Assembly (NCBI GenBank): GCA_907163225.1
Contig: OU015322.1
Location: 1,223,501-1,287,500, forward strand
Source of the DNA: an uncultured Rhodocyclaceae bacterium
GTDB taxonomy: Bacteria > Pseudomonadota > Gammaproteobacteria > Burkholderiales > Rhodocyclaceae
Direction: 5' to 3'
Length of the DNA stretch: 64,000 bases
The number at the start of each line of letters is the position of its first letter. Position 1 is the stretch's first letter. The translations under genes and the position numbers were made by a program. Below the pieces are notes generated by a model. The model did not search any database. It had not been told where the DNA came from and saw only the letters and a list, made by a program, of their open reading frames with translations. This document shows positions 2,724-62,870 of this stretch, piece after piece.

Positions 2724-2780
2724 CGACCATGGAAACAACGGCTGGCCCTACGGTCAACCGGAAAAATTGCCCAATTTGAA
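2724..2780 (-). repeat. Dispersed GTTGACCG repeat, long form
   Basis: On the minus strand this reads TTCAAATTGGGC, a T-tract, then CCGGTTGACCGTAGGG and an extension GGCCAGCCGTTGTTTCC. The extension is shared with the copy at 32474-32527 (CCATRGARACAACGGCTGGCCCT on the plus strand in two parts). It lies between the chemoreceptor stop and the terminator hairpin. Confidence 0.8.
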
Positions 2781-2796
2781 TAACAGGGCATCAGCC

Positions 2797-2820
2797 AAAC
2801 CGCCTCAGCCGAGGCGGTTT
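2797..2820. terminator. Bidirectional terminator between chemoreceptor and kinase
   Basis: Perfect 10-bp stem AAACCGCCTC / GAGGCGGTTT with a 4-base loop AGCC, A-tract on one side and T-tract on the other. It sits between two convergent genes and can serve both. The kinase stop codon follows at once at 2821-2823. Confidence 0.8.
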
Positions 2821-4179
2821 TCACATCGGGGTCAGTGCCATATCCAGGCCGCCCGGCCGCGAACCGGGCGGGGCGTCGCTGGTACTCTGAACCGCCGGCG
2901 TCCCCTGAGCGGCGGCTATGCGATTGACCTCGCGCATGCGCTGGATCAGTCGGGACAACAGCCCGTTCCGCATGCGTTCCAGGAGCTCTTCGGAGGACAG
3001 GGCCAGCGCCGCGGCGTTGATTTCCAGGAAAAGCGTCGGCTCCAGCGTCACCACTGTCGAATGACGCTGATCACTGGCCGGATGCAGATAGGCAATTTCA
3101 CCGATGGGCTCGCTCGGGCCAAGGCGGCACAAGGCTCTGCCACCGATGGAGACTTCGACCGAACCAGTCAGGATGATGCCAAAAAATTTATTGTTGTCAC
3201 CTTGGCGAATCAAAGCCACGTTCGGCAAGACCTCGCGCCAGACTGACACCCGCAGGACTTCCCAAATCTCGATGTTCTCGAACTCGGTGAAGAAATCGAG
3301 TCGGCGCAGCGTCTCGAAATGGCTGGTGTCATTGACCGTTTCATCCTCATTGAAGATCTGGTAGCGCACCGCCGACAGATCCTTGGCGAACTCGGTACCA
3401 TTGCGGTAGCGGCTGTAGAGGTCTTTCTCCAGCGCCCGGCGCATGATGCCGTTGAGGCCTTCCGGCAGATTCGGGTTGAGCGCGGTCACCGCTGGCGCAT
3501 CGGTGTTGATGATGCGATAAACCAGCGTCGCCTGGTTGTTGGCACGGAAGGGCAGGCGGCCAGTCAGCAACTGGAACATCAGGACGCCGAGCGAATAAAG
3601 ATCAGTCTTCTGGTTGAGTGGATAACCCTTGATCTGCTCCGGCGACATGTAAGCCGGCGAACCAACGCCCATGATGAAGGTCGAGTCGCGATCCATGTCC
3701 TTGTTCATGTTCAAGGCCAAGCCGAAATCGGCGATTTTCGGTTCGTCGCCGGCTGAAATCATGATGTTGGCCGGCTTGATGTCGCGGTGAATGATGCCCT
3801 GCCGATAGGCTGCGTCGAGCGCCATGGCGCATTTGAAGATAATGCCGATGACCCGGTGCATGGGCAGCAACTTGTCGATGCGGCAACTTTCTTCGAGTGT
3901 GAAGCCGTTCACGTACTCCATCGCCAGATATGCAAAGTTATCCTCGACTACGGCTTCATAGACCTGAACGATATTCGGGTGATTGAGGCGCTTGGAAACC
4001 ATCCCTTCGTTCTGGAACAACTTGCGCATCCGACGCGACATGGCGGCGCAATCCTGCCCGAAGCTGATCACCTTGACGGCGACCTGGCGGTCGGCATCCG
4101 GGTCGTCGCACAGGTAAACCGTGGCCGTCGCACCCTTGCCCAGCTCCCGAACCACCCGATATTTGCCTATCTTTTCCAT
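2821..4179 (-). CDS. Serine/threonine protein kinase with C-terminal cyclic-nucleotide-binding-like domain
   Basis: Hanks-type kinase of 452 residues. The kinase domain covers about residues 6-270: glycine loop GKGATATVY, ATP lysine K36 in VAVKVI, catalytic HRDIKPAN (H131-R132-D133), DFG at 151-153 and the SPAYMSPEQ activation-segment end. A cNMP-binding-like beta-roll follows (about 290-410, with IRQGDNNKFFGIILTGSVEV and PIGEIAYL). No membrane helix is seen, so it should be cytosolic. I chose ATG 4179, where kinase homology begins; a longer open frame runs upstream through grpE promoter and coding DNA but makes no sense as protein. It diverges from grpE, which hints at a stress-signalling role but does not prove one. 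Confidence 0.9.
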   Translation of the reverse strand: MEKIGKYRVVRELGKGATATVYLCDDPDADRQVAVKVISFGQDCAAMSRRMRKLFQNEGMVSKRLNHPNIVQVYEAVVEDNFAYLAMEYVNGFTLEESCRIDKLLPMHRVIGIIFKCAMALDAAYRQGIIHRDIKPANIMISAGDEPKIADFGLALNMNKDMDRDSTFIMGVGSPAYMSPEQIKGYPLNQKTDLYSLGVLMFQLLTGRLPFRANNQATLVYRIINTDAPAVTALNPNLPEGLNGIMRRALEKDLYSRYRNGTEFAKDLSAVRYQIFNEDETVNDTSHFETLRRLDFFTEFENIEIWEVLRVSVWREVLPNVALIRQGDNNKFFGIILTGSVEVSIGGRALCRLGPSEPIGEIAYLHPASDQRHSTVVTLEPTLFLEINAAALALSSEELLERMRNGLLSRLIQRMREVNRIAAAQGTPAVQSTSDAPPGSRPGGLDMALTPM

Positions 4180-4348
4180 TAGGATTTGCAAAGAAAACTC
4201 ATGAAATGATCGTAGCACGCAGGGCGCCTGCGCGGCAGCAGTTTTGCCAATTCCAGTGCGTAGAAATGCTTCATGGTGGCGATCGTTAACGGCCAATTTC
4301 CCGAAAAGTTTAGCCCACGCAAAGGCGCAACTTTTTTGACACCGCCCC

Positions 4349-4380
4349 CTTGAAAGCAGGGGGAGCGCCCCCAGATATCT
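4349..4380 (+). promoter_or_regulatory. Sigma-32-type heat-shock promoter of grpE
   Basis: CCCCTTGAAA (CTTGAAA at 4349-4355) matches the sigma-32 -35 consensus, and CCCCCAGAT from 4368 resembles the CCCCAT -10 element, with a 12-base spacer. It lies 26 bases upstream of grpE. It should drive grpE and perhaps dnaK-dnaJ. Confidence 0.75.
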
Positions 4381-4405
4381 CTGCAGATTTTTCGGAGAAC
4401 CATGC

Positions 4406-4960: not shown

Positions 4961-4964
4961 CCGC

Positions 4965-5000
4965 TTTCAAATTTGGGCGTTTTTTCCGGTTGACCGCAGG
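4965..5000 (+). repeat. Dispersed GTTGACCG repeat, best-conserved copy
   Basis: TTTCAAATTTGGGCG, six T's and CCGGTTGACCGCAGG. It begins four bases after the grpE stop and lies in the 120-base gap before dnaK. I use it as the reference copy for the family. Confidence 0.85.
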
Positions 5001-5080
5001 AACTCCAATCCCGGCGGCTTGAAATCAGGACGAAAGCCCCCAACTCACGAACATCAGCAATTCACTTTAAGGAACGAATC

Positions 5081-8241: not shown

Positions 8242-8270
8242 ACGGTGCGCGACATTCAAAGAAAGTGATC

Positions 8271-9445: not shown

Positions 9446-9482
9446 AAGCCCCGGTGAACCGAGTATGTCGGCACCGGGGCTT
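9446..9482 (+). terminator. Rho-independent terminator after dnaJ
   Basis: Stem AAGCCCCGGTG / CACCGGGGCTT (11 bp) with a 15-base loop and a short T-run (9481-9484). It lies 47 bases after the dnaJ stop. Confidence 0.8.
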
Positions 9483-9484
9483 TT

Positions 9485-9516
9485 CATATTTGGCCATTAT
9501 TTCGGGTTGACCGCAG
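9485..9516 (+). repeat. Dispersed GTTGACCG repeat, just after the dnaJ terminator
   Basis: CATATTTGGCCATTATTTC then GGGTTGACCGCAG. The left module is diverged but the right module is nearly intact. It starts within three bases of the terminator stem. Confidence 0.65.
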
Positions 9517-9608
9517 CGATCGCAAAGTTCCCGAAAAGGCCGAAATGTACCGTTCCAAGCCGTTTCTGGCTGCTAGAATAAATCCACCAAATCAAAAACG
9601 AGAGACAA

Positions 9609-10748: not shown

Positions 10749-10755
10749 GAAGCCG

Positions 10756-10778
10756 CCGGTCAACCAGAAAAAACGGCC
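10756..10778 (-). repeat. Dispersed GTTGACCG repeat merged with a terminator
   Basis: On the minus strand: GGCCGTTTTTTCTGGTTGACCGG. Its T-tract end is also the 5' arm of the terminator hairpin that follows, so repeat and terminator overlap. Confidence 0.6.
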
Positions 10779-10797
10779 TTTTTTCCGGGCCGTTTTT
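10770..10797. terminator. Bidirectional terminator between the binding protein and cysS
   Basis: Stem AAAACGGCC / GGCCGTTTT with a 9-base loop and T-runs on both strands, between convergent genes (stops at 10748 and 10815). Confidence 0.8.
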
Positions 10798-16532: not shown

Positions 16533-16553
16533 TTGCCCAAGCCCGCAGGAGCA

Positions 16554-16590
16554 TTTCAATTTTGACCCAAATTTCCGGTTGACCGTGGGA
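16554..16590 (+). repeat. Dispersed GTTGACCG repeat covering the recQ start
   Basis: TTTCAATTTTGACCCAAATTT in two parts, then CCGGTTGACCGTGGG. Both candidate recQ start codons (TTG 16579, GTG 16585) lie inside its right module, and the nearest ribosome-binding-like AGGAG (16547-16551) lies upstream of the repeat. Confidence 0.8.
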
Positions 16591-18406: not shown

Positions 18407-19024
18407 ATGGAAAACCGGAACCCGCTCAACGCCTCGCTCGCCGCCATAGTCATCGCAGCGCTGATCGTTTCCGGCATCGCCCCCTTCGACCGCGCAACAT
18501 GGATCATGGAAGTCGCGCCCGTGCTGATCGCCCTGCCGGTCATGGTCGCGACGCGCACGGCCTATCCGCTGACGACACTGCTCACCGTGCTGATCGCCGT
18601 CCACGCCCTCGTACTGATCGGCGGGGGCGCTTACACCTACGCCCGCGTGCCGCTCGGTTTCTGGATGCAGGACGTGCTCGGCACGGTGCGCAATCCTTAT
18701 GACAAGATCGGCCATTTCATGCAGGGCTTCGTGCCGGCCATGGTCGCCCGTGAGATTCTGATCCGCGGCAAGTACGTCGTCGGGCGCCGGATGACCGGCT
18801 TTCTGTGCATCAGCATCGCCATGGCCATCAGCGCCAGCTACGAGCTGATCGAATGGGCCGCGGCGCTCGGCATGGGCCAGGGCGCCGACGAATTCCTTGG
18901 CACGCAGGGCGACCAGTGGGATACCCAGTCGGACATGTTCATGGCACTCGTCGGTTCGAGTACGGCAATAGCCGTGCTCTCCGGCTGGCATGACCGACAG
19001 TTGGAAAAACTCTCCAGAATTTAG
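18407..19024 (+). CDS. DUF2238 (YjdF-like) inner-membrane protein
   Basis: 205 residues with five or six hydrophobic helices (for example 10-26, 31-46, 52-72 and a last one near 180-196). Motifs of the DUF2238/YjdF family are seen: NPYDKIGHFMQGFVPAM, ASYELIEWAAAL and GDQWDTQSDMFMALVGS. The molecular function of this family is not known. It starts two bases after the recQ stop, so the two are likely cotranscribed. A repeat copy begins at its stop codon. Confidence 0.85.
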   Translation: MENRNPLNASLAAIVIAALIVSGIAPFDRATWIMEVAPVLIALPVMVATRTAYPLTTLLTVLIAVHALVLIGGGAYTYARVPLGFWMQDVLGTVRNPYDKIGHFMQGFVPAMVAREILIRGKYVVGRRMTGFLCISIAMAISASYELIEWAAALGMGQGADEFLGTQGDQWDTQSDMFMALVGSSTAIAVLSGWHDRQLEKLSRI

Positions 19025-19046
19025 GCTTTTTTCCGGTTGACCGCGG
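19018..19046 (+). repeat. Dispersed GTTGACCG repeat at the end of the DUF2238 gene
   Basis: AATTTAGGC, a T-tract, then CCGGTTGACCGCGG. The stop codon of the DUF2238 gene (TAG, 19022-19024) lies within the left module. Confidence 0.75.
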
Positions 19047-19247
19047 AAACCGGCACCTCAAAGGCGGCATACCTGCGGGGCGCTTACAGGCGGAAAAGCC
19101 GCCCAGCAGCGGAGAGGCAAGTCCGCCGAAACTCCGTGACGAAATACCGCAAAGCCGTAAGAATCCTATGCTATACATGTTTTATGCCACGCTGGCATAA
19201 CCCAAACAATGACATCAGACAGCCCATCAGCGGCCAAGAGGGAACAC

Positions 19248-21734: not shown

Positions 21735-22811
21735 TCAGTGCAGATGCTGCTCGGCCACCGCGGCCAGATCAGCCGACAGCGTTGAAGTAGCGATGCTGCG
21801 CCGCAAGGCATCCTTGGCCTCGGGCAGGCGACCATCGGCCTCCAGCGCCAGGCCCAGCCCCAACCACCAGCGTCCCTCAGCGGGCGCAAGGCGAGCCGCC
21901 CGTTGGTAATGGTTCACCGCTTGACGATGCGCCCCAAGACGCGATTTCAGATGGCCCTGAAACCCGGCATAGTCGGCGCTGGCCTCGGCATAGGCCTGCG
22001 AACGGGCCAGCGTGCGGTCAGCCGCCGCCAAATCGTTGTGCTCCAGTTGCAGGCGAGCCAGCGACATGGCCCAACCGGTCTGCGCCGGCTGGAGATCGAT
22101 GCCGTCATGGAGAACCTGCATCGCATCTTCCGTCTTGCGCACCTCGAGCAACTGACGCAGCAACATCTGCCGCGCCTGGACATAAACGGGGTCCAGTTTC
22201 AACGCGGCCTTGAATCCCTCAATCGCTTCAGCACTGCGGCCAGCCGTCATGGCATTTTCGGCCTTGCGATATTCGGCTTCGGCACGGTCACGCGGCGTGG
22301 CCAGCACTGCGCTTTTCTCGATTCTGACCGGGCCGGGTTGGATCACCGGCGCTGGCTTCGCGACTTCGGCGACAACGGGCGATGGCGGCGGAGGCGCAAC
22401 CGGGTCGGGCACCGATAAAACTGGCGCAGCGGGCGTGGGCAGCGCCGCCAGACTTGGGGCCAGACGCAAATCACTGTCTGAAATTGGCTCGTTTTTCGGG
22501 TTGACCGCAGGAGACACCGCGGGGTCCGTGCTCGCAACAACCAGTGGCACCGGGGCCGGAACGGGAGCGCCGACAAGCGGCGTTTCAAGCGGTGCCGCGT
22601 CAATGCCAAGCAGCGGCAACAACAGCCCGTTGGCATGTAACGCAGCCGCCCCCGCCAACGGCAGGCCAATCAGCACCAAGAGCCGAAGGCGCCAGCCTTG
22701 CCCGGACGGCGTTGCCGGCAGCGAACGAATTTCGCGTTGCAAGCTCTGCCGGGACGGATCATCGGGACGCTTGGCCTCGATATTGCGCAGCATGTCGTTG
22801 ATCAGGCTCAT
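21735..22811 (-). CDS. mshN: MSHA biogenesis protein MshN (TPR)
   Basis: Bitopic inner-membrane protein of the MSHA pilus machine, 358 residues. The start MSLINDMLRNIEAKRPDD is typical of MshN. A membrane helix follows (about 42-66), then a long Pro/Val/Ala-rich periplasmic linker (about 70-170) and C-terminal TPR helices (about 180-358). ATG 22811 is one base past the mshM stop. Inside the linker a copy of the dispersed repeat is read in frame as PAVNPKNEPIS, so the linker has tolerated an insertion. Confidence 0.9.
   Translation of the reverse strand: MSLINDMLRNIEAKRPDDPSRQSLQREIRSLPATPSGQGWRLRLLVLIGLPLAGAAALHANGLLLPLLGIDAAPLETPLVGAPVPAPVPLVVASTDPAVSPAVNPKNEPISDSDLRLAPSLAALPTPAAPVLSVPDPVAPPPPSPVVAEVAKPAPVIQPGPVRIEKSAVLATPRDRAEAEYRKAENAMTAGRSAEAIEGFKAALKLDPVYVQARQMLLRQLLEVRKTEDAMQVLHDGIDLQPAQTGWAMSLARLQLEHNDLAAADRTLARSQAYAEASADYAGFQGHLKSRLGAHRQAVNHYQRAARLAPAEGRWWLGLGLALEADGRLPEAKDALRRSIATSTLSADLAAVAEQHLH
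22477..22511 (+). repeat. Dispersed GTTGACCG repeat inside mshN
   Basis: TCTGAAATTGGCTCG, a T-tract, then CGGGTTGACCGCAGG. It lies within the coding strand of mshN (antisense orientation) and encodes PAVNPKNEPIS in the flexible linker. Confidence 0.75.
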
Positions 22812-31099: not shown

Positions 31100-31642
31100 T
31101 CAACAGCCATAAGGCGCGCTCGTAATCGTGGCATCCCGGCACTTCTCCAACGTCACTTCAACCCGGCGTTCGATCCCTGGCGCCTTGACACCAGTGGCTG
31201 TTGCAAGCGAAGCGATGCGGTAAACGCGAATCTGCCGCGCCCCTTCGGTGTAATCGTTGCTCGTGCAAGCAACAAGCAAGGTATGGCCCGGGATGGTCGG
31301 CGCGCCATTGACACAAGCCGGCAAACCGGCGTTCTGGGCATTCGGATCGAGCTGGAACATCCCCCATTCCGCCCCCGTCCGCGCTGCCTGATAGGCCCGT
31401 GCGCCGCCGATGTCGGCCGCCTGATTCACATGGGCTGTTGAAACAATATTGGCAATCGCGGCTGCCAGCACGGCCATCAACAGCAACAGGAAAATGCCGG
31501 TAATGATTGAAACGCCGCGCTGCTGCCCGGGAGGGGCTATCCCGAAATTCCGCACCCGCAAAGTACGTCCTGCGCCGCAAAGAAGGCACCCGGAGGGAAC
31601 TGGCCGCGGTCGACCGGAAAAAACGGGCAAATTTGAAATCAT
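31100..31642 (-). CDS. mshP: MSHA minor component MshP with repeat-encoded N-terminal extension
   Basis: 180 residues. The family core begins at RG-VSIITGIFLLLLMAVLAA (residues 42-61), a pilin-like hydrophobic helix. The 42 residues before it are unusual: about the first 14 (MISNLPVFSGRPRP) are encoded by a copy of the dispersed repeat. ATG 31642 overlaps the mshO stop as ATGA, which supports this start and shows that the repeat sits directly after the start codon. Such a long, Pro/Cys-containing leader is not normal for this family; a later non-ATG start cannot be excluded. Confidence 0.85.
   Translation of the reverse strand: MISNLPVFSGRPRPVPSGCLLCGAGRTLRVRNFGIAPPGQQRGVSIITGIFLLLLMAVLAAAIANIVSTAHVNQAADIGGARAYQAARTGAEWGMFQLDPNAQNAGLPACVNGAPTIPGHTLLVACTSNDYTEGARQIRVYRIASLATATGVKAPGIERRVEVTLEKCRDATITSAPYGC
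31605..31641 (-). repeat. Dispersed GTTGACCG repeat at the start of mshP
   Basis: On the minus strand: GATTTCAAATTTGCCCG, a T-tract, then CCGGTCGACCGCGG. It begins one base after the A of the mshP start codon and is translated as the protein's N-terminus. Confidence 0.8.
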
Positions 31643-32544
31643 GGCGTGTTCAGTACAGCGACCTGATGGAGCAATTCAACTGTCTCGCCATTTTTGCTCA
31701 GTGACAGACGCAGGACGACGAGCCCATTTCGCTGCAAAACTGCTGGGGTGTAGGAAAAAGTGCAATTGGTGACGTTCTCTGCCAGCACGGAAACACTGCC
31801 ACCCAACGCAGCGAAACTGATCGGCTGTGCAGGCTGGAATCCATATCCCGAGCGCCGCAACAAGCGGTTGCCCGAACATTCGTAAGTCACCGGTGTGCCG
31901 ACAATCTGAAAGCGATTACTCGGAGAGGCCAGCGGAAACTGGGTTCCGCCCGGCGCAAAGGTGACCGTACTCAGGCCCGCACCGGCCGTCACTGCCCGAC
32001 GACTGGAGGCTGCCTCATAGACATCGGAACCCGGCTGCCCCAGGTTGAAGATGACCAGTTGATCGCCGGCCACTACCGTCACGGCGGGGCCAAGCACATC
32101 GAAGCTGCTGTCGGCGCTGCTGCCAAAATCCAGCACGTTCCCCGTACCGGTCGAGCTGAGTTCTGCGCGGTAGCGGCCTGCATCGTGTATCGGCACAAAC
32201 TCTAGCAAGCTGGCGGATGCATTTCGCACGCTGTTGGGCAAGGCCGATTGCAGGTCGCGCGCAATCCGCCGCAAGGCCGTATCGGCAGCATCGGACAACT
32301 CGGCACGGTTGCTGACATCGATGTAGGCGTTCACCTGATTGCGCCCGAACATGGCCATCATGGAAACGACAATGCCCGTGATCACAATCGAAATGATCAT
32401 TTCGATCAGCGTGAACCCGCGGCCATGGCGGCTACAGGATGTGCCACGGCCATAGAGACAACGGTTGACCCCACGACCATAGAGACAACGGCTGGCCCTA
32501 GGGTCAACCGGGAAAATCGGGGAAAAATCAGTAGCGCGGCGCAT
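31639..32544 (-). CDS. mshO: MSHA minor pilin MshO with 43-residue repeat-bearing leader
   Basis: Prepilin-type protein, 301 residues. The cleavage motif is G43 before FTLIEMIISIVITGIVVSM, the methylated N-terminal helix of a pilin. Type IV prepilin leaders are usually 5-20 residues, but here it is 43 long and contains CLYGRG twice plus CSRHGRG, from tandem repeat DNA. ATG 32544 lies within the 3' end of mshD and has no ribosome-binding site; I see no better in-frame start before the cleavage site. Downstream it is a normal PulJ/MshO-like pseudopilin. Confidence 0.88.
   Translation of the reverse strand: MRRATDFSPIFPVDPRASRCLYGRGVNRCLYGRGTSCSRHGRGFTLIEMIISIVITGIVVSMMAMFGRNQVNAYIDVSNRAELSDAADTALRRIARDLQSALPNSVRNASASLLEFVPIHDAGRYRAELSSTGTGNVLDFGSSADSSFDVLGPAVTVVAGDQLVIFNLGQPGSDVYEAASSRRAVTAGAGLSTVTFAPGGTQFPLASPSNRFQIVGTPVTYECSGNRLLRRSGYGFQPAQPISFAALGGSVSVLAENVTNCTFSYTPAVLQRNGLVVLRLSLSKNGETVELLHQVAVLNTP
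32448..32527 (-). repeat. Dispersed GTTGACCG repeat, long form with tandem partial units
   Basis: Two units CACGRCCATAGAGACAACGG in tandem (32445-32471 and 32472-32497), the second followed by CTGGCCCTAGGGTCAACCGG and an A-tract. The extension matches the copy at 2724-2780. The DNA is translated within the MshO leader; a third, weaker unit overlaps the prepilin cleavage site. Confidence 0.8.
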
Positions 32545-33591: not shown

Positions 33592-33606
33592 CGGAATGGG
33601 CCAAGC

Positions 33607-34014
33607 TTATTGGGCACAAATAACAGTGGCCGATGCCGCGGTTCCCTTGGTCGGGGTCACGGTACAGGTTGCAGCAGAGCCATCATTCAAGACAACGGAA
33701 CAGTCCATCACGCCGCTCTGGGCAAACGTGTAGCCAGTGGCTGGCAACGGCGTCTGCATGATCTTGTTCAGTTCAGTCAAGGTGCAAGGCGTTGCCGAAG
33801 TATATGCAACGCCCTTGGCGGAATTTGCCTTCCTTGCAGCGTAGTTTATCGAGGCAGCCGAGGAAATCCCACCGGCGACCCCGGCGGCGGCAGCGGTACT
33901 TGCTTCAGAGGTCAAATCAACAAACTTTGGCAAAGCCGTCGCCGCCAGAATGCCGAGAATGACAATGACAACGACCAGTTCGATCAGCGTAAAACCCTTT
34001 TGCATAGCCTTCAT
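33607..34014 (-). CDS. mshA: MSHA-type major pilin candidate
   Basis: Type IVa pilin, 135 residues, with short leader MKAMQKG and helix FTLIELVVVIVILGILAATALPKF; the +5 Glu is present. The C-terminal region holds the disulfide-type Cys (TPCTLTEL and DCSVVLND, plus CTVTPT and VICAQ). ATG 34014 follows AGGAG by 7 bases, a strong site. Its position before a partial terminator and its small size suggest that it is the main subunit. It is next to a second, larger pilin gene. Confidence 0.9.
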   Translation of the reverse strand: MKAMQKGFTLIELVVVIVILGILAATALPKFVDLTSEASTAAAAGVAGGISSAASINYAARKANSAKGVAYTSATPCTLTELNKIMQTPLPATGYTFAQSGVMDCSVVLNDGSAATCTVTPTKGTAASATVICAQ

Positions 34015-34038
34015 AGCAAACTCCTAAAAATTAAAAAA

Positions 34039-34644
34039 TCAACATCCATCTGTGGACAATCCGCTGATCGTTGCTGCCTGATTGGCAACCGGCGGTTGGG
34101 TATAAGTAAAGAAACAAGTAGCTGGCGTTGTTGCACCAATCACACCAAACCTGGCCACGCCGCCGGCGACCGTGTAGGTATAACCTTCAGCCTGCAAATC
34201 GGCGGCCGAGGGGTTGAAAATACCGGTGAGGCCGGCCATCGATAGAATGCCGGCCGTTCCGACTGCGGTGACTGCGGGGTAGGCAAAAACCATATTAACC
34301 AGCCCGCTCTCGGTACAAACCGTTCCAAGTGCCCCGGTTACGTTATCCGCCGTGCCGCCGCCGGCACAGGCAGCCGTATCGGCAATGCCGGCCCGCGAAA
34401 ATGCCGTGGCATGAACCAGCGCCGAAGCCGCAGAAACGCTGCCACGCGCTGCCTGCAATTTCGCGATACGTGCGTCACGCTGCAGATTGACAAAGCGGGG
34501 CAAGGCCACGGCGGCCAGGATCCCGAGAATGATGATAACAACGATCAGCTCGATCAAAGTAAAACCGAGCTGGCCGCGTCTGTCGAAAATGGATTTTTTG
34601 TTCATATCTTCAATATCGGCTGAGAATTTTAATACTTTAGACAT
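34039..34644 (-). CDS. mshB: MSHA-type pilin, MshB-like, with 27-residue leader
   Basis: Prepilin of 201 residues. The helix FTLIELIVVIIILGILAAVALPRF follows a Gly at about residue 27. I chose ATG 34644 because AGAAGGAGG stands at the right distance; it gives the leader MSKVLKFSADIEDMNKKSIF-DRRGQLG, long for a type IVa pilin. The internal ATG 34605 (MNKKSIF) gives a more usual leader but lacks a good site. The mature part has Cys in TAACAGGG, TVCTESG and CFFTY. Confidence 0.88.
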   Translation of the reverse strand: MSKVLKFSADIEDMNKKSIFDRRGQLGFTLIELIVVIIILGILAAVALPRFVNLQRDARIAKLQAARGSVSAASALVHATAFSRAGIADTAACAGGGTADNVTGALGTVCTESGLVNMVFAYPAVTAVGTAGILSMAGLTGIFNPSAADLQAEGYTYTVAGGVARFGVIGATTPATCFFTYTQPPVANQAATISGLSTDGC

Positions 34645-34665
34645 ATCAACCCTCCTTCTCAAGTT

Positions 34666-35101: not shown

Positions 35102-36325
35102 TTATCGCTTGACGGCGACTTTGCCCAAATCCCACATCGGCAGGAATATTCCCAGCGCCAACACCAGGACGAGTGCGCCGAGGCAAATGATCAGAATTGG
35201 CTCGATCTGCTGGCCCAGCGTCTTCAGCTCGTATTCGACTTCGCGCTGATACATTTGACCGACTTCTTCCAGCATGTCATCCAGCGCCCCCGATTCCTCA
35301 CCGACTGAAATCATCTGCAGCACGACCGGCGAGAAAAACCCGGAAGCAATGGCGGAGCGCACCACGCTTTCGCCGCGCTCCACCGTATCGCGCATCCCCT
35401 CGATCTTGGCGGCGATGTAGCTGTTGTCCACGGTTTGCGACGAGTTGGTCAGCGCCTGCATGACTGGCACGCCGCTACGCATGCCCAGCGCGAAGCTGCG
35501 CGCGAAACGGGCCATCGCGGCCTTGCGGACAATTTTTCCGGCAATCGGAAAGCGCAGCAAACTCGCCTCCCATTGCATGCGCCCGGCCGCGGTTCCCACC
35601 CAGGTACGAAATGCCAATACGGCAACGATGGCGCCAACCAGCATGGCTGGCCACCAGGCCACCATGAAATTGGAAAAGCCGAGCAGAATCCTCGTCATCA
35701 GCGGCAATTCGGCGCCAAAGCCCTGAAATACCTTGGCGAACGCCGGAATGACGAACAGATTGACCACCACGATGGCTGCCGCCATCGCCATCACCACAAA
35801 CATCGGGTAGCGCAGGGCCGATTTGACCTGCTCGCGCATGAAACGCTCGAATTCAAGGTGATCGAACAGACGCAGGAATATCTCGTCGAGCAGTCCGGTT
35901 GCTTCGCCGACCCGAACCATGGAAATGTAGAAGGGGTTGAACACCTTGGGATGACGCGCCAGCGAAACCGACAATTCGCGCCCGGCCTCCAGGCTCTCGC
36001 GCACATCGCGAATCACTTCCTTCATGGCCGGATTGGTCGCCGACTCCTGCAGGCCGGTCAGAGCGCGCATGATCGGCACCCCTGCCTTGAGCAAGGTGTG
36101 AATCTGCCGCGAAAAAAGCAGGATATCGACGTGCTCGACCTTGGGTTTGAACAGCGTCAAGCCGACATCGCCAGACTTTGCCTTCGCCGCCGTCTCGGTG
36201 ATTGAGATCGGCGTAATGCCACGTCCGAACAGGGCATCGGCCACGCCGCCCGACGATGCGCCTTCCAGCACGCCCTCGATCAGGTTGCCGCCACCATCCC
36301 GTCCCTTGTAGGCAAAATTGGCCAC
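35102..36325 (-). CDS. mshG: MSHA biogenesis inner-membrane platform protein MshG (PilC/GspF-like)
   Basis: 407 residues with two GspF domains (about 70-190 and 270-395) and three membrane helices (about 170-190, 220-240, 375-395). Signature segments: DILLFSRQIHTLLKAGVPIM and FARSFALGMRSGVPVMQAL, and the end ALVLVLALGIFLPMWDLGKV. It couples the MshE ATPase to pilin insertion. The gap to mshE is 6 bases. Confidence 0.95.
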   Translation of the reverse strand: MANFAYKGRDGGGNLIEGVLEGASSGGVADALFGRGITPISITETAAKAKSGDVGLTLFKPKVEHVDILLFSRQIHTLLKAGVPIMRALTGLQESATNPAMKEVIRDVRESLEAGRELSVSLARHPKVFNPFYISMVRVGEATGLLDEIFLRLFDHLEFERFMREQVKSALRYPMFVVMAMAAAIVVVNLFVIPAFAKVFQGFGAELPLMTRILLGFSNFMVAWWPAMLVGAIVAVLAFRTWVGTAAGRMQWEASLLRFPIAGKIVRKAAMARFARSFALGMRSGVPVMQALTNSSQTVDNSYIAAKIEGMRDTVERGESVVRSAIASGFFSPVVLQMISVGEESGALDDMLEEVGQMYQREVEYELKTLGQQIEPILIICLGALVLVLALGIFLPMWDLGKVAVKR

Positions 36326-36331
36326 CCTGGC

Positions 36332-38041
36332 TTATTCCTCGAACTGGTTGCTGATGCGCATGGCTTCCGACACCGTCGTTCTGCCGGCCAGCACCAGACG
36401 AACCGCATCGCGGCGCAGGGTCTCGCCGGCCATCTGCTGGCGGGCAACGCGCATGAACTCACCCGGATCTTCATGATTGATGGCTTCGACCACCAAGTCG
36501 CTCATTTCCAGAAATTCGTAAACACCGGTCCGGCCTTGATAGCCGGTGTTGGCGCAATGGGCGCAACCACGGCCGTGATGAAAGGTGTGCCGGTCGATCT
36601 GGTCGCCCAGCTCGTAGCGCAGCCACTCGTGTTCGCTCGGCGTCAGCGCGTAGGGCTCGCGGCAATTGCTGCAAATGACGCGAACCAGCCGCTGGGCGAT
36701 GACCATATGCACCGACAGCGCCACCATGTAGCGCGGCACGCCCATGTCGAGCAGGCGGATCGGCGTCGATACGGCATCGTTGGTGTGCAGGGTCGACAAC
36801 ACCAAGTGGCCGGTCATCGCGGCGCGCATGCCGATTTCAGCCGTTTCCTGGTCGCGCATTTCGCCGATCAGGACAATATCCGGATCCTGACGCAGCACGG
36901 TACGCAGCACGCGAGAGAAGGAGAGATCGATTTTTTCATGCACCTGCACCTGATTCAGGCCGGGCAAGCGGTATTCGACCGGATCCTCGACGGTAATGAC
37001 CTTCTTTTCGGTGCTGTTCAGCTCGTTGAGCGCAGCATAGAGCGTCGTCGTCTTGCCGGAACCGGTCGGGCCGGTAACCAGCACCATGCCGCTCGGTCGT
37101 TTCAGCGCATGGCGAAGGCGCTCCAGGACACGCGGCGGCATGCCAACCTTGTCCATCCCCAGCAGGCCGGTATTCTGGCTGAGCAGACGCATCACCACCG
37201 ATTCGCCGAACTGGGTCGGCAGTGTCGAGATCCGCACATCGACTGGATTGGCCCGCACTTTGATGTTGAAACGACCGTCCTGCGGCAGGCGCTTTTCGGA
37301 AATATCGAGGCCTGACATCAACTTGAGTCGGAGCGCAACCGCCGACGAAATCTTGGCGTCAGCCTCAGTCTGGATGTGCAGCAGGCCGTCAATACGGAAG
37401 CGGATGCGCAGCGATTTTTCCTGCGGCTCGAAATGGATGTCGGAAGCGCGCAGACGCATTGCCTCCTCGAACACCGTCTGCAGCAGCTTGACGACCGGGG
37501 CATCTTCGGCGCCCGGATTGAGGCCGAGCAGGTCGCCGAATTCGACCGGCACATCGCCCAGCTCGGCGGTCAGTTCCTTGGCCAGACCGGTGATCTGCTC
37601 GCCGCGGTGATAAACACGGTCGACCATGGCCAGCAACTGGCTTTCGGTGACGACGGCGAGGTCGATTTCGCGGCGAACCAGTCGGGTGATTTCGTCGTAA
37701 GCCTGCAAATCGGTCGGGTCGGCCATGCCAATCTGCAGGCGACCACCCGGCAATTGCTCAAGTACCAGCGCACGAAAACGACGCGCCGGCGACTCGGGCA
37801 GCAACTTGATCAGTTCCGGCTTGGGGGTGAAACTATGGAGGTCGACAAAGGGAATCCGCAACTGCCGGGCCAGTGCCTGCGAGATACCTTCCTCGGTGAC
37901 GTAGCCGCTCTCGACAAACACCCGCCCAAGCTTGCGCCCGGTGCGTTTTTGCTCGTCGAGCGCCATTTTCAGTTGCTCTTCGGTCAGCAGGCCTTGCTGA
38001 ATCAGCAGGTCGCCGAGGCGGACTTTTTGCGGGGGGGGCAT
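36332..38041 (-). CDS. mshE: MSHA pilus extension ATPase MshE
   Basis: Hexameric GspE/PilB-type ATPase, 569 residues. The N-terminus has two MshEN motifs (RLGDLLIQQGLLTEEQL and KLGRVFVESGYVTEEGI, each RLGxxL-like plus Leu spacing), known to bind c-di-GMP in Vibrio MshE, so pilus extension is probably c-di-GMP-controlled. Walker A is TGPTGSGKTTTLYAAL; the Asp box, Walker B (ILIGEMRDQETAEIG) and a CxxC zinc pair (CSNCREPY, CAHC) follow. ATG 38041 has GGAGG five bases upstream. The second to fourth codons are CCC CCC CCG: a run of eight C's. Confidence 0.95.
   Translation of the reverse strand: MPPPQKVRLGDLLIQQGLLTEEQLKMALDEQKRTGRKLGRVFVESGYVTEEGISQALARQLRIPFVDLHSFTPKPELIKLLPESPARRFRALVLEQLPGGRLQIGMADPTDLQAYDEITRLVRREIDLAVVTESQLLAMVDRVYHRGEQITGLAKELTAELGDVPVEFGDLLGLNPGAEDAPVVKLLQTVFEEAMRLRASDIHFEPQEKSLRIRFRIDGLLHIQTEADAKISSAVALRLKLMSGLDISEKRLPQDGRFNIKVRANPVDVRISTLPTQFGESVVMRLLSQNTGLLGMDKVGMPPRVLERLRHALKRPSGMVLVTGPTGSGKTTTLYAALNELNSTEKKVITVEDPVEYRLPGLNQVQVHEKIDLSFSRVLRTVLRQDPDIVLIGEMRDQETAEIGMRAAMTGHLVLSTLHTNDAVSTPIRLLDMGVPRYMVALSVHMVIAQRLVRVICSNCREPYALTPSEHEWLRYELGDQIDRHTFHHGRGCAHCANTGYQGRTGVYEFLEMSDLVVEAINHEDPGEFMRVARQQMAGETLRRDAVRLVLAGRTTVSEAMRISNQFEE
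38032..38039 (-). repeat. C8 homopolymer right after the mshE start codon
   Basis: Eight G's on the plus strand at about 38031-38038 (eight C's on the coding strand), beginning directly after ATG. Loss or gain of one base would shift the frame of mshE from codon 4 on. Position may be off by one base. Confidence 0.7.
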
Positions 38042-38169
38042 CCCGACCTCCAAAACACCTTAAGAAAATACGTTAACAATATGAAGTAACGGATTAAGTT
38101 TCCACAGTAGACGTTTTTTGATGCCCCGACAAGCCGCCACCGGGCGACCTGTCAGTAAACTGCCGAAAA

Positions 38170-39507: not shown

Positions 39508-39571
39508 ATTTCAAATTCAGGCATTTTTTCCGGTTGACCGCAGCAAGCCCGGTTGACCGTAAAAAAGCCTG
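39508..39571 (+). repeat. Dispersed GTTGACCG repeat with two tandem cores and flanking inverted arms
   Basis: GATTTCAAATTCAGGCA, T-tract, CCGGTTGACCGCAG, then a second CCGGTTGACCG 19 bases on (39549-39559). The outer arms CAGGC..TTTTTT (39518-39529) and AAAAAAGCCTG (39561-39571) are complementary, so the element can form a hairpin around the two cores. It lies between metZ and rhlE. Confidence 0.8.
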
Positions 39572-48382: not shown

Positions 48383-48395
48383 AAATCCGCCTGTG

Positions 48396-48428
48396 CTACG
48401 GTCAACCGCAAAAAATGGCCAAAATCGA
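48396..48428 (-). repeat. Dispersed GTTGACCG repeat between truA and trpF
   Basis: On the minus strand: TCGATTTTGGCCA, T-tract, GCGGTTGACCGTAG. It fills half of the truA-trpF gap, 14 bases upstream of the trpF start on the transcript. Confidence 0.75.
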
Positions 48429-48464
48429 GTTTCCCGGACGACGACACAATTTCGCCCGTCCCTG

Positions 48465-56282: not shown

Positions 56283-57689
56283 TTACAGAACGTCACGCAC
56301 ATCGGCAAAGCGGCCGGCAATAGCCGCTGCCGCCGCCATCGCCGGACTAACCAGATGGGTACGCCCACCTGGGCCCTGACGGCCTTCGAAATTGCGGTTG
56401 GATGTCGAGGCACAACGCTCGCCCGGCTCCAGACGGTCGGCATTCATGGCCAGGCACATCGAACAGCCAGGCTCGCGCCACTCGAAACCGGCGGCGATGA
56501 AAACCTTGTCCAAGCCTTCGGCTTCGGCCTTACGCTTGACCAGGCCGGAACCCGGCACGGCCAGCGCCAGCTTGACGGTCGCCGCAACATGGCGCCCCTT
56601 GAGCACGCCAGCCGCTTCACGCAAATCCTCGATGCGCGAATTGGTACACGAGCCGATGAAGACCTTGTCGATGGCGATCTGGTTGATTGGGGTGTTCGGA
56701 TTCAGACCCATGTATTGCAGGGCGCGTTCCATGCCTTCGCGTTTGACCGGATCGGTCTGCTTGGCAGGATCGGGTACAACAGCGTCGATGGCGACGACCA
56801 TTTCCGGCGAGGTACCCCAGGTCACCTGCGGACGGATATCTTCGGCCTTCAGCGTGACGATTCGATCAAACTGCGCGCCGGCATCGGAATGCAGCGTACG
56901 CCAGTAGGCAACAGCCCGATCCCAGATTTCGCCCTTCGGCGAGAACGGACGATCTTTCAAATAATCGACAGTTTTATCGTCGACCGCAACAAAACCCATC
57001 CGCGCGCCGCCTTCGATGGCCATGTTACACAGGGTCATGCGCCCTTCCATGCTGAGGCCGCGAATGGCGCTGCCGCCGAACTCGATGGCGTAGCCGGTGC
57101 CGCCGGCCGTGCCGATGGTGCCGATAATGGCCAGCGCCACATCCTTGGCGGTGACGCCCTTGCCGAGCCTGCCTTCGACGGCGACCAGCATGGTCTTCGA
57201 TTTTTTCTGCAGCAGACACTGGGTGGCCAGCACATGCTCGACCTCCGAGGTGCCGATGCCATGCGCCAGGCAGGCGAAGGCGCCATGTGTCGAGGTATGG
57301 GAATCGCCGCAGACGACGGTCATGCCGGGCAGCGTGGCGCCATTTTCCGGACCGACGACATGGAGAATGCCCATGCGCGGATCCTTGAACGGAAAGTAGG
57401 CGAGAGCACCGACTTCGCGGATATTGGCGTCCAGCGTTTCAACCTGCTGACGGGAGACGGGATCCTTGATGCCTTCATCCCAGTGATCGGTCGGCGTGTT
57501 GTGATCCGGCGTCGAGACGATGGACGAAACCCGCCACGGCTTGCGGCCGGCCAGCTTCAGGCCTTCGAAAGCCTGCGGGCTGGTGACTTCGTGAACGAGG
57601 TGGCGATCGATGTAGAGAAGGGCCGTGCCATCAGCTTCCTGATGAACGACATGATTCTCCCAAAGCTTGTCGTAAAGGGTCTTCGACAT
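56283..57689 (-). CDS. leuC: 3-isopropylmalate dehydratase large subunit
   Basis: Large [4Fe-4S] subunit of isopropylmalate isomerase, 468 residues, aconitase family. Cluster cysteines are in [14 protein letters not shown] and [30 protein letters not shown] is the aconitase signature. It starts the leuC-ecn-leuD-leuB-asd group. The 30-base gap to the upstream MFS gene holds no clear promoter. Confidence 0.98.
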
Positions 57690-57719: not shown

Positions 57720-58907
57720 TTATTGCACAGGATCTTTAGTTTTTGGCCCGTTTTCCCGGTTGACCGCAGCATTCGCGCCGACCCAGCCCCACACCAGAAC
57801 AAAGCCGACCAGCGCGAACAGCGAACCTAGGGAAAAGGTCCAACCCGAGCCCAACGATTCCCAGGTTCTGCCGCTGATCAGCGCACCGAGCAAACCGCCG
57901 GCGCCGAAGGAAAGGCTGGAGTACAGCGCCTGTCCTCTGCCCTGCGCCCGCCCAGGAAACCACTGGTTGACCGCAGCAATCGAAGCCGCGTGATAAGCGC
58001 CGAACGTCAGCCCGTGCAAGAGTTGAACGAAAATCATGATGCCAGCCGACTCGACGCCCCAGCCCATGAGCAGAAAGCGAATTACTGCTGCGGCAAAGCT
58101 GGCAAGCAGGATGGCGCGTAGCGAAAACTGCCGCGACAGCCGCGCCATGAACATAAAGACGACGATTTCCGCTACGACGCCGAGCGACCAAAGCAAGCCA
58201 ACTTCAGTCTTCGAGTAGCCGTGCGCATCAAGGTGGATCGAGTAGAAAACATAGAAGGCACCGTGCGCCGCCGACATGGCGAAGCAAGCAGTCATCAGCG
58301 CGATCACTTTCGGCTGACGCAGGATTTCGCCGATCGGCTGTCCGTCGCGAGCATGGGGAACCGGCGGCGCTTCCGGCAAGGTCAGTGCGTAGAGCAGAAT
58401 TCCCGCCAGGATTAGCCAGCAGACCCAGAGCACACCAGCCGGCGGTGCCATGTCGAGCAGCGCGCCTGTTCCCATCACGGCCACGATGAACCCAATCGAT
58501 CCCCAGAGGCGAATTCGGCTGTAGCGACCGCGCTCTTCGCGCAGATGATCGAAAGTCAGGGTCTCAACCAGCGGTAGTGCAGCACTCCAGAAGAAAGCTA
58601 GCACCGCCATCGCCAGCAGCATGCCGGGCAGTTTGTCGAGCCAGAAAAATGCGGTGAATCCGGCCAGCCCAATCCCGGCGGCCAGACGGATGATCGCCAT
58701 GCGCCGACCAAAGCGGTCAGCCAGCCAGCCCCAAAGATTCGGGCCAAAAAGGCGCATCAACTGCATCTGGGACATCAGCAGCCCGATGTCCCAAGCAGAA
58801 AAACTCAGGGATTGGAGATAGAGCCCGAAGTAGGGCGAGAAGGCGCCAATGAAGGCGAAATAAAAAAAATAGTAGCCCGAGAGGCGCCAGTAGGGCAAAG
58901 CATGCAT
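57720..58907 (-). CDS. MFS transporter (phenylpropionate/HcaT-like MFS_1-like family)
   Basis: 395 residues with 12 predicted helices. The start MHALPYWRLSGYYFFYFAFI and the pattern FSPYFGLYLQSLSFSAWDIG, GPNLWGWLADRFGRR fit the MFS_1-like/HcaT family. The substrate is unknown. The last about 14 residues (AAVNRENGPKTKDPVQ) are encoded by a copy of the dispersed repeat, replacing or extending the original C-terminal tail. It lies upstream of leuC in the same direction. Confidence 0.88.
   Translation of the reverse strand: MHALPYWRLSGYYFFYFAFIGAFSPYFGLYLQSLSFSAWDIGLLMSQMQLMRLFGPNLWGWLADRFGRRMAIIRLAAGIGLAGFTAFFWLDKLPGMLLAMAVLAFFWSAALPLVETLTFDHLREERGRYSRIRLWGSIGFIVAVMGTGALLDMAPPAGVLWVCWLILAGILLYALTLPEAPPVPHARDGQPIGEILRQPKVIALMTACFAMSAAHGAFYVFYSIHLDAHGYSKTEVGLLWSLGVVAEIVVFMFMARLSRQFSLRAILLASFAAAVIRFLLMGWGVESAGIMIFVQLLHGLTFGAYHAASIAAVNQWFPGRAQGRGQALYSSLSFGAGGLLGALISGRTWESLGSGWTFSLGSLFALVGFVLVWGWVGANAAVNRENGPKTKDPVQ
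57741..57770 (+). repeat. Dispersed GTTGACCG repeat at the 3' end of the MFS gene
   Basis: TTTTGGCCCG, then TTTTCCCGGTTGACCGCAGC. It is translated (antisense orientation) as AAVNRENGPK near the C-terminus of the transporter. Confidence 0.75.
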
Positions 58908-60600: not shown

Positions 60601-60613
60601 CGTTGCCTCAAAC

Positions 60614-60990: not shown

Positions 60991-61735
60991 TGTACTCTCT
61001 TCTGTGTGCTCGTCAGTCTGCTGCGCGTGACGTTTCTGGGGCGCCGTGGGGAGTAGGAACGCGTCAGGCGTCCGATCGGCGCTGCGGTCGAGCGCCCGGG
61101 CGCCTGCGGCCTAACGCAAAACAAAACCTTTTTGTCCCTCATGCTCTCTTTCTTGCTAGTTCTACCCCCCGTTTTAAAAGAAGAAGGATGTTACACTAGG
61201 GACATTCTGTGATGTTTGGTATTGGTGTAAAGCGGTTTATACGGTTCTAGGGAGCTCAAGCAGAGTAAGTGGAGCGAGAGGCTGGTGGGTAGCGATATAT
61301 GGCGGTCAGAGCTCGGCTGAGGGGGGCCGTCGAGACTCTTGCTTCATGTGTGAGTTGTTAGGTGGATATAGGAACGGTTAGGTTCACGCTGTCGTTACTG
61401 AGCGCTTGGGATATGAGCATTAGTATGGAGTATGGTAGATCTGCTATCACGAATCGTGGGTATATTAGGAGGCTAAAGTCAGGATCTCTTTCTCTGTAGT
61501 TAGTGATAAAGATCGTGCGTGAGAGTGACAGGCGGGGACAGAGAGAAGGAGTGTGACAATGAACGGGATGAGAAATATATTGGAAAGTTATTGTGAGTGT
61601 ACCGTAGAAATGGTCTAAAAATATGAGACACTTAGATTTATAGGTATAAGCTAGGAGGATTGGTAGAACTATTGTACCTAGAGTATGGAGATTGGAGCAG
61701 GCTAACTGTTAAAAAAATCGCGAAGGATAGACGCA
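60991..61735. other. Anomalous non-coding segment of about 0.74 kb
   Basis: No gene is seen on either strand. From about 61200 the DNA is C-poor and purine-rich on the plus strand (6 C in the 60 bases 61501-61560, 8 in 61381-61440), full of stops, and unlike the GC-rich surroundings. The first part (61000-61150) is GC-rich but also non-coding. The genes on both sides lose their 5' ends at its borders. It may be a poor-quality assembly join or a foreign insertion. No repeat, hairpin or insertion-sequence ends were recognised. The right border is an estimate. Confidence 0.6.
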
Positions 61736-61994
61736 AGCGAATCAGTCGCGCTCGGCCGAACAAGAAACAATTCTTGTCCCACCCGAGGCGGGAACCCATG
61801 CGTCACCCAAGAGCGGCCGTAACATGCCGAAGCCCGTCCGTGAATTGCTGCGCCTGGTGCATGTTGAACAAGTCGACATCAAGAACATCAAGCGTGAAGA
61901 CATGGACGTGGTCGACTACCTCAAGGCTCAGGAACCGGAACTGTTCAAGTCCTTGAAGAAGTCGGCTCGTAGCCACGCAAAAAAAGCCGCTTGA
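61736..61994 (+). pseudogene. C-terminal fragment of an unrecognised protein
   Basis: An ATG at 61824 opens 56 residues (MPKPVRELLRLVHVEQVDIK and NIKREDMDVVDYLKAQEPEL, then a basic end KKSARSHAKKAA). The same frame is open upstream to a TAG near 61733 and codon use there also looks native, so the piece is probably the 3' end of a longer gene cut by the anomalous segment. There is no good ribosome-binding site for ATG 61824. The family is not recognised. Confidence 0.5.
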
Positions 61995-62009
61995 TTTTCA
62001 CCCCGAAAG

Positions 62010-62030
62010 GGGCGTTGACCGCAACAACGG
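62010..62030 (+). repeat. Possible short core of the dispersed repeat
   Basis: GGGGCGTTGACCGCAACAACGG: only part of the right module, no left module. It lies between the fragment stop and the radical SAM stop. Confidence 0.35.
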
Positions 62031-62033
62031 GCA

Positions 62034-62870
62034 TTACGGGGAAACAACCACCCGGATGCCCGTTTCTTTTGTGATCAACGCGGCGAAATCATCCAGATCC
62101 TTAGCTACCAGGGCATTCAGACGAAATGCTGCTGGCTGTAGCGAAGGTCTCGCCAGTCCATACAAGTGCACACCAGCCAGTTTACTGGACAGCGGACGTA
62201 GCAAATCGCAATACGCCATTTTCGATTCAGCCGTAGGCGGTATTCCATCTAGCGCGAACCAGCAGGTTTGAACCCAAGTCGGCACCAAGGCAGCGCAAAT
62301 TTTTAGATTTTTTGCCATTTTTTCCGGTTGACCGGGGATGCCGTTTATCGCGGCGATCTCGCTTTCAGTCGCACGATCAATCTTGAACCATACTTCGCCA
62401 CCTATTTCCGCCAAGCGCTGGACGCCCAACTGAACATTAGGCCGATGCATCAAACTGCCATTGGTAATCAGGCGAACAAGCAAGCTTCCCTTTTGCTCAA
62501 AGCGTCCCAGAACCGATCCAACGCATGCCACGGCATCGGCAAACTCCGGCGCACTTGTCGGCTCACCATTCCCTGAAAAAGCCACGTCCACCAACCGCTG
62601 GGCATCCGGGGGTACGTGTTGCCGCATAAAATTCCCGTGTAGCACCTGTTCCAGAAAGCCGCTGAATTCCCTTTCCAGGCAATCCAGATCAATCGGCGGC
62701 GGACCGCCACGCGTCAGATTGTCAACCTGACAATAAACGCACGCCCAATTGCAAGCATTATTGGGATTGAGGTTAATGCCTATGGATACCCCGCCGGAAC
62801 GGCGTGAAATTACGGGATAAACATAACGCAGGCCGGCACTATCCCGGCGGTGATCATCTGTGGTGAGCAT
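62034..62870 (-). CDS. Radical SAM protein (COG0731-like, wyosine-synthase-related group)
   Basis: 278 residues with the CxxxCxxC iron-sulfur motif ACNWACVYCQ and SAM-binding parts (FSGNGEPTSAPEF, LITNGSLMHRP). The pattern NPNNACNWACVYCQVDNLTR is typical of the COG0731-like group, not of QueE. Substrate unknown. ATG 62870 (MLTTDDHRRDSAG) starts 43 bases from queD, divergent. A copy of the dispersed repeat is read in frame in the middle as IPGQPEKMAKNLKI (about residues 178-191). Confidence 0.85.
   Translation of the reverse strand: MLTTDDHRRDSAGLRYVYPVISRRSGGVSIGINLNPNNACNWACVYCQVDNLTRGGPPPIDLDCLEREFSGFLEQVLHGNFMRQHVPPDAQRLVDVAFSGNGEPTSAPEFADAVACVGSVLGRFEQKGSLLVRLITNGSLMHRPNVQLGVQRLAEIGGEVWFKIDRATESEIAAINGIPGQPEKMAKNLKICAALVPTWVQTCWFALDGIPPTAESKMAYCDLLRPLSSKLAGVHLYGLARPSLQPAAFRLNALVAKDLDDFAALITKETGIRVVVSP
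62296..62337 (+). repeat. Dispersed GTTGACCG repeat inside the radical SAM gene
   Basis: CAAATTTTTAGATTTTTTG, CCA, a T-tract and CCGGTTGACCGGGG. It is antisense to the gene and encodes IPGQPEKMAKNLKI. Confidence 0.8.

Follow-up and report, generated by a model that had tools for sequence, protein, structure and literature searches.

The stretch of 64,000 nucleotides analyzed here (the window) is part of the single-contig genome (3,463,890 bases; 3.46 Mb) of an uncultured Rhodocyclaceae bacterium. Among named records, in a search that may omit those very near to this genome, its presumed DnaK-like protein scored best against Propionivibrio and Accumulibacter (84–85% protein identity), which places it with Rhodocyclaceae-type bacteria; by elimination, the genus may be Azonexus/Dechloromonas. 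The window carries many copies of a dispersed repeat, located between genes, over gene ends and within genes, including a cluster encoding type IV minor pilins. As argued below, this repeat is probably a sequence of the uptake-signal type and, as such, the representative of a third, independent family of uptake sequences.

Copies, anatomy and placement of the repeat

The repeat is real. Sites were scored with a 40-column weight matrix, using cut-offs of at least 12, 20 or 30 bits, and matrix counts were controlled with reversed sequence and one Markov-1 simulation. The window contains 22, 16 and 12 sites at these respective thresholds. The element or its extension (see below) was found at every one of the 13 places listed in a preliminary description of the window: coordinates 2724 and 32448 mark the starts of extensions, whose cores lie at 2751 and 32501, and the other places carry copies, the one at 10756 being present but weak (20.6 bits; core TGGTTGACCG). 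A 464-kb sample, composed of the window and 20 stretches of 20 kb from the same genome, yielded 194 sites of at least 12 bits, compared to none in either control; since the 20 stretches were picked around exact matches, the motif density in this sample is inflated. An earlier matrix with a looser cut-off (at least 9 bits) gave 221 sites, compared to 7 in the reversed control.

Exact words were counted in the whole genome, with reversed words as controls, and such counts were the basis for copy numbers between genomes, since a profile count cannot exceed the number of candidates scored (88 per genome, 150 or 28, depending on the search). The words CGGTTGACCGCAG, TTTCCGGTTGACCG and CCGGTTGACCG occur 108, 241 and 344 times, respectively (1, 0 and 23 times for the controls). 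Scaling of the 344 exact words by the sample ratio (80 exact words in the sample) gave an estimate of ~834 sites of at least 12 bits or ~533 of at least 30 bits (~530–830), equivalent to ~150–240 per Mb, and the several hundred copies per genome predicted in the preliminary description were therefore correct. Hundreds of copies on both strands are characteristic of uptake sequences.

The 38-bp consensus, ATTTCAATTTTGGCCnTTTTTTCCGGTTGACCGCAGCA, was built from 62 copies of this genome, taken among 86 scoring at least 36 bits. Its total information (~30 bits) is distributed over an A/T tract (positions −18 to −14), a T tract (−7 to −3), the core GGTTGACCG and a trailing CAGCA. The two A/T tracts are spaced by approximately one helical turn and lie upstream of the core. 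This core, CGGT-TG-ACCG, had been described as an inverted repeat; it is indeed a near-palindrome, but a single consensus copy folds no better than shuffled sequences (z +1.2; z +0.65 for one window copy).

The positions of the sampled copies relative to genes were determined with a home-made gene caller. This analysis revealed that 112 of the 194 copies are intragenic (54 on the strand of the gene, 58 on the opposite strand), with one reading frame used by 75 of them. The others comprise 37 tandem intergenic, 20 convergent and 7 divergent copies, along with 11 that overlap the 3′ end of a gene, 3 that overlap a 5′ end and 4 at edges. Per kb, convergent spacers are the richest (20 sites in 11.9 kb, compared to 7 in 16.1 kb of divergent space) and coding DNA the poorest. 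Transcription terminators or RNA elements would be enriched between convergent genes in this way, some copies do follow terminator-like hairpins, and one inverted pair folds. However, a function of this kind is highly improbable for a motif that forms no stable stem as a single consensus copy and is largely intragenic in both orientations; a search with Rfam at gathering scores gave no match in the window.

Neither the orientation nor the spacing of the copies follows the chromosome. No tie to the replichores was detected (57 of 100 places, taken from the 108 exact ones; best rotation 61; origin assumed at base 1), and the gaps between copies are random-like, without even spacing (coefficient of variation 1.0). 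A Chi-like recombination or repair signal, read on one strand, would agree with hundreds of copies kept in conserved gene neighbourhoods, but not with this lack of orientation bias; moreover, known Chi sites are much shorter than 38 bp, and a signal of this type is highly improbable.

Two similar genes ~3.5 kb apart (L018:4179-5282 and 7707-8807) both contain the same motif copy, and the sequence surrounding it does not differ between them. The copies identified in the window, together with the neighbouring genes of interest, are listed in Table 1.

Table 1. Copies of the repeat, extensions and pilus-related genes in the window (T relatives, congeners with the same core dialect, see text)
Feature	Position	Strand	Remarks
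Motif copy, T dialect	2746..2783	-	39.7 bits; specific to this genome; bears extension; core 2751
Extension of copy at 2751	2723..2750	-	absent from relatives compared
Motif copy between presumed grpE-like and dnaK-like genes	4964..5001	+	50.2 bits; same place, T form, in 8 relatives (G161, G196, G172, G182, G197, G192, G175, G169); variant core at same place in 3 (G147, G160, G205)
Motif copy directly after terminator-like hairpin	9481..9518	+	47.3 bits; in 7/7 T-dialect relatives tested
Weak copy overlapping terminator-like T-run	10752..10789	-	20.6 bits
Motif copy over start of RecQ-domain gene	16553..16590	+	45.9 bits
Motif copy at gene end	19011..19048	+	37.5 bits; copies near same gene end in 5 relatives
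Motif copy within TPR-protein gene	22475..22512	+	40.8 bits; in 1/6 T relatives (G197)
Type IV minor-pilin genes, including GspH/FimT-like (33096-33617)	31100..34662	-	candidate receptor region
Motif copy, core CGGTCGACCG, minor-pilin gene cluster	31602..31639	-	45.1 bits; 6/6 T relatives
Extension of copy at 32501, two rounds	32446..32500	-	DNA of 32430-32520 folds strongly (z -3.5)
Motif copy, minor-pilin cluster	32496..32533	-	33.1 bits; 6 T relatives with motif, without extension
Presumed PilC-like and PilB-like genes	35102..38053	-
Motif copy	39508..39545	+	49.7 bits; hairpin (z -3.8) with second core at 39550; decayed in G112, G194
Motif copy upstream of presumed trpF-like gene	48394..48431	-	46.9 bits; 6/6 T relatives
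Weaker intragenic copy	56954..56991	+	27.3 bits; 23-24 bits in 4/4 T relatives, 18-19 in G169 and G160, negative in G112, G194
Motif copy inside 3′ end of MFS transporter gene	57734..57771	+	45.1 bits; 4/4 T relatives
Motif copy	62302..62339	+	36.5 bits; scored in this genome

Origin of the copies and the mobile-element alternative

A few coding sites, located in the window or in the stretch L021, were compared at the species level with congeners (designated by G-numbers) to distinguish insertion from substitution; PMC1626085 describes this test, as applied here, for the uptake signal sequence (USS) of Haemophilus. At 57758, in the MFS gene, the motif is present in this genome and in G161, G196, G172 and G197; it is missing from G194, at equal length, and from G169, which is 12 bp longer. 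Sites 56978 and 45913 show zero length change in all genomes and are both negative in G112 and G194; the latter site is weak in this genome (18.6 bits) and scores from −7 to 16 in T relatives. At L021:8084, ~440 bases into a 3.07-kb gene, G161, G196 and G197 have copies of 50–53 bits, and G112, G195 and G169, without the motif, are equal to them in length (GATCCGCTATTCGACCATTTCTATCGC in G112 occupies the place of GATTTCATTTTTGGCCATTTTTTCCGG in G196). The stretch that bears the copy of this genome (49 bits) exceeds that of all those compared by 27 bp. Around 16577, six T relatives plus G112 and G169 (both without the motif) differ by at most 1 bp, and this genome is 18–19 bp longer. At none of the coding sites compared do congeners without the motif have a gap to match it; the motif therefore arose at these sites by substitution or by recombination in situ rather than through insertion.

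The preliminary description had proposed, as one of two readings, an element similar to repetitive extragenic palindromes (REP) or miniature inverted-repeat transposable elements (MITEs), spread by an unlinked transposase; a Y1 (RAYT) enzyme or one of another type, acting in trans, was considered here. MITEs are recognized by terminal inverted repeats, target duplications and empty sites. The proposed check for empty sites in relatives revealed no motif-sized gap at the coding sites compared and length differences at some intergenic ones: the copies at 4988 and 48399 coincide with differences of 50–86 bp (at 48399 the spacer is empty, and 86 bp shorter, in G112, G194, G169 and G160), which would allow for insertion at each of those. 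These intergenic copies are in line with a mobile element, as is the high copy number.

A further point in its favour is the extension shared by two window copies, which was correctly noted at the outset. In the 464-kb sample, this sequence, about GTAGGGCCAGCCGTTGTTTCTATGGTCGCAG, comes directly after the core at 8 loci, i.e. the two in the window and L014:4806, L014:5177, L019:9536, L023:11771, L027:2246 and L027:8513, with GTAG near both ends in some copies. Both window examples are situated within ~80–105 bp absent from T-dialect relatives and look like insertions; the DNA around the second folds strongly (Table 1) and that around the first (2700-2770) does not (z +0.5). The extension subfamily may be a true small mobile element (REP-like) that contains or joins the motif.

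REP sequences typically form hairpins, are mainly extragenic and flank the gene of their TnpA-REP transposase. The repeat resembles them in being short, dispersed, abundant and sometimes paired, but differs in its many intragenic copies (112 of 194), its origin by substitution at coding sites and the absence of a single-copy hairpin (z +1.2). A search of the genome for Y1_Tnp, the only transposase family sought, did not identify a cognate Y1 gene flanked by the motif. The only full-length Y1 transposase gene found (L009:1130-1930) has on its flanks an inverted repeat of the GGGGACAGACCACGG type, which bears no relation to the motif, and a second Y1_Tnp match (C1:317765) is partial. The link to REP/RAYT was rejected, this Y1 search having given no full-length IS200/RAYT-like transposase with matching ends. 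The mobile-element reading may fit the two window extension copies but is not supported for the main family, whose positions are moreover common to several species; as an account of the repeat as a whole, it is very unlikely.

Two places in the window show larger length differences among congeners. The place orthologous to 10741-10819 has ~520–600 bp extra in G161, G196 and G208 (L032, L033 and L035), with similar inverted ends and a motif copy inside, and L019 of this genome contains similar text near 17564. Likewise, ~1.5–1.7 kb are found in G112, G194, G150 and G195 (L031, L036, L041 and L044) at the place orthologous to 9391-9614, compared to ~0.1–0.4 kb in most other relatives.

Shared positions and dialects within the genus

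Gene order is conserved over up to 60 kb among congeners, the nine nearest genomes being 80–82% identical. The comparison covered ten of the 12 sites that score 30 bits or more in the window (19035 and 62326 lie outside these ten), and 8 of them are present in every T-dialect relative reached (4–7 each), at 18–19% DNA divergence. Over the 44 site-genome pairs with the motif in the relative (9 of the 10 sites), core identity is 98.7%, a value raised by the omission of pairs in which the relative scores below 20 bits; for the same pairs it is 89.5% in the T tract, 83% in the first A/T tract and 82–83% in the aligned flanks (gaps left out). Such high conservation of the core at shared positions is typical of uptake sequences. 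One foreign island in G182, the only one considered, contains no site of at least 15 bits in 28.7 kb of its sequence, compared to 12 in 60 kb of the same genome (~6 expected).

The search of sister genomes suggested in the preliminary description was extended to counts of exact words in 76 genomes of the genus (this one included), and these disclosed different core dialects. The T-dialect word CCGGTTGACCG has at least 150 copies in 11 of the 76 genomes, among them the present one, and the C-dialect word CGGTCGACCGCA at least 60 copies in 20. For the C dialect, sites were identified by patterns, since iteration of a weight matrix led to codon periodicity (G199, G160, G176, G184 and six pooled genomes). 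The T-dialect profile also matched in genomes poor in both words. Among the strong sites (at least 40 bits) of fetched loci, GGC[C/T]GACCG was found in 4 of 7 in G198, 4 of 6 in G216 and 1 of 7 in G190, and CGGGTTGACCGCAG in 3 of 6 in G171; two further G190 sites in 20 kb carry GGGCGACCG and GGCTGACCG. These few loci point to what is probably a third dialect, with the core GGC[C/T]GACCGTAG; since reading was confined to loci that matched the T profile best, these figures may underestimate the frequency of other cores.

The A/T scaffold looks alike across the dialects. In the C-dialect genome G160 (the only one tallied, with lengths copied by hand), AAAT lies 13–15 bases from GGTCGACCGCA in 87 of all 94 matches (6–22 allowed). 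Both A/T tracts are phased to the core in the T dialect, and the first tract is so in G160, as in elements of the USS type.

The dialects follow phylogeny insofar as a tree of 32 genomes based on 15 kb unites the T-dialect genomes in one clade, with the motif-poor G169 inside; G112, G194 and G195 are sister to it, followed by G175 (97 T and 78 C words) with the motif-poor G150. Some congeners are almost without the motif, and there is loss or decay of it in some species. Decayed copies occur in G112 and G194 at 39532 and L021:16786, although both genomes keep some good copies and are not clean non-bearers; their common core GGTTGGCCG at L021:16786 is compatible with decay before their split and with a variant form.

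Outside the genus, 239 genomes of the family were searched with a strict T-dialect profile: among those listed, the 7 from the same genus all match and 6 others have 1–2 matches. A set of 80 loci (1.49 Mb), taken from named records whose DnaK shows no more than 85% identity, gave no match to the T-dialect motif, the only dialect searched outside the genus.

Shared positions, a conserved core, dialects and substitution origin could also result from coevolution between a chromosomal protein (a factor acting in the nucleoid, in segregation or in recombination) and its sites, these being kept by selection and not by uptake bias; the near-palindromic core would suit a dimer. However, hundreds of sites with ~30 bits of information across 38 bp, a majority of the sampled ones intragenic, exceed what such proteins are known to need, and the copies show neither replichore orientation nor even spacing. 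Since some congeners have almost no copies, the motif is also dispensable. We consider such a protein an unlikely, though not a far-fetched, cause.

Proposed uptake, competence genes and known uptake sequences

The other reading in the preliminary description was that of a signal that serves the cell, uptake being one example, and this is the alternative favoured by the intragenic copies, the substitution origin and the shared positions. The motif could not be tied to any single gene, and uptake is the best explanation, short of a demonstrated one, for its copy number and anatomy, its origin by substitution at the coding sites compared, its shared positions, at least two dialects, its loss or decay and its absence from one foreign island. 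A competence system consisting of a type IV pilus and ComEC would bind DNA bearing the 38-bp word through a putative receptor, such DNA would be taken up preferentially, and recombination of the incoming DNA would spread and repair the word at homologous places, genes included. Biased uptake and recombination are thought to enrich the words of known families (PMC2397512 and PMC12616744), and PMC7811141 relates A/T-tract shape to stronger uptake in Haemophilus. The features of the motif, A/T tracts included, fit enrichment of this kind.

Competence-type genes are present: the window encodes minor pilins, among them a protein with a GspH/FimT domain, and presumed PilB-like and PilC-like proteins, and ComEC was found in 71 of the 76 congeners. 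Among motif-poor species, comEC of G169 is distributed over two frames, that of G157 is short and that of G203 is split. The minor-pilin/FimT cluster is absent from the motif-poor G169 at the place syntenic to 28088-33916 of the window (L139; 577 bp between the flanks), an absence established for this locus only.

In G182, comEC is interrupted by ~33.7 kb (L211/L212, G182:C33:109609-143310). The two pieces of this insert encode a large serine recombinase, a CHAT-domain protein, a type ISP restriction-modification enzyme, a B-type DNA polymerase and a D5/VapE-like protein, and it may be an integrative element targeting comEC. The split in G203, by ~32.5 kb, lies at the same region of the profile.

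Several observations, besides the length differences at intergenic copies 4988 and 48399, weigh against uptake as the cause. (i) No cognate receptor was found, since within the genus the motif is consistently accompanied neither by an intact comEC nor by the minor-pilin cluster, and both were rejected as discriminators. Among motif-rich genomes, comEC is split in G182 and fragmented over two contigs in G206 and G160, and some motif-poor genomes keep an open comEC and the minor-pilin cluster. The latter is present in all five other motif-poor genomes reached (G150, G173, G157, G203 and G220), as well as in G112 and G194; of the 20 stretches fetched for this comparison, 7 were counted and the other 13 held none of the genes sought. 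(ii) Two of the ten strong sites compared are not shared (2751 in 0/6 and 22499 in 1/6 T relatives), and the first A/T tract is conserved no better than the flanks. (iii) The C-dialect genomes require 5 changes on the 15-kb tree, as do the T-dialect genomes on the noisier single-gene dnaK tree (70 rows; G192 apart) that it replaced. (iv) The uptake sequences of Haemophilus or Neisseria are denser than the motif. (v) Inverted neighbours within 60 bp are limited to 2 pairs among the 194 sites (partners of at least 12 bits counted), and one pair (39532/39550) folds; inverted pairs acting as terminators are frequent in uptake sequences, although PMC12616744 does not state that they are required.

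Among known systems, the USS of Pasteurellaceae (Hin-type AAGTGCGGT and Apl-type ACAAGCGGT) is similar in its plan, a core with two A/T-rich segments ~11–12 positions apart, as well as in its many copies, substitution origin, subclade-specific variants and broken competence genes in some species (PMC1626085 and PMC12616744). In contrast, the core of the motif is the near-palindromic CGGTYGACCG, and the inner USS core GCGG arises only in copies that continue with CAG or the like, being absent from those ending in TGG or TAG. The motif is also a 38-bp word with A/T tracts further from GCGGT, of lower density, and belongs to a betaproteobacterial genus.

The DNA uptake sequences (DUS) of Neisseriaceae likewise have dialects congruent with phylogeny and a stop codon in one frame; DUS are absent from recently acquired genes (PMC3630211 and PMC2397512). 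Unlike the motif, a DUS has no A/T tracts and consists of one uninterrupted word, ~13 nt at most (PMC12616744 and PMC1626085). There is no sequence similarity between the two, and a receptor, ComP, is known for DUS, compared to none found here. Coevolution of orthogroups with dialects has been analyzed for ComN (PMC12616744).

As stated in a 2025 paper, surface choice of homologous DNA by a short enriched motif is known only from Neisseriaceae and Pasteurellaceae (PMC12616744). Our literature search, with thin coverage of subscription journals and bioRxiv, found nothing on such a motif in Rhodocyclaceae among the hits listed. On balance, and with slightly less assurance than for the uptake-signal nature of the repeat, we lean towards a third independently evolved uptake-signal system outside these two families. 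It would comprise, within one genus, two or more core dialects with solid counts and probably a third, dialect change on a kept A/T scaffold, repeated loss, and a plan of core plus two A/T tracts convergent with the Haemophilus USS.

Without uptake as the cause, another new explanation would be required for conserved 38-bp words that number in the hundreds and whose cores change. If the third family is true, it would provide a comparative series, spanning many congeners, more than one dialect and repeated losses in hosts that, judging by their kinship, seem environmental, on how uptake specificity starts, changes and dies, and would make it possible to search for the receptor by coevolution.

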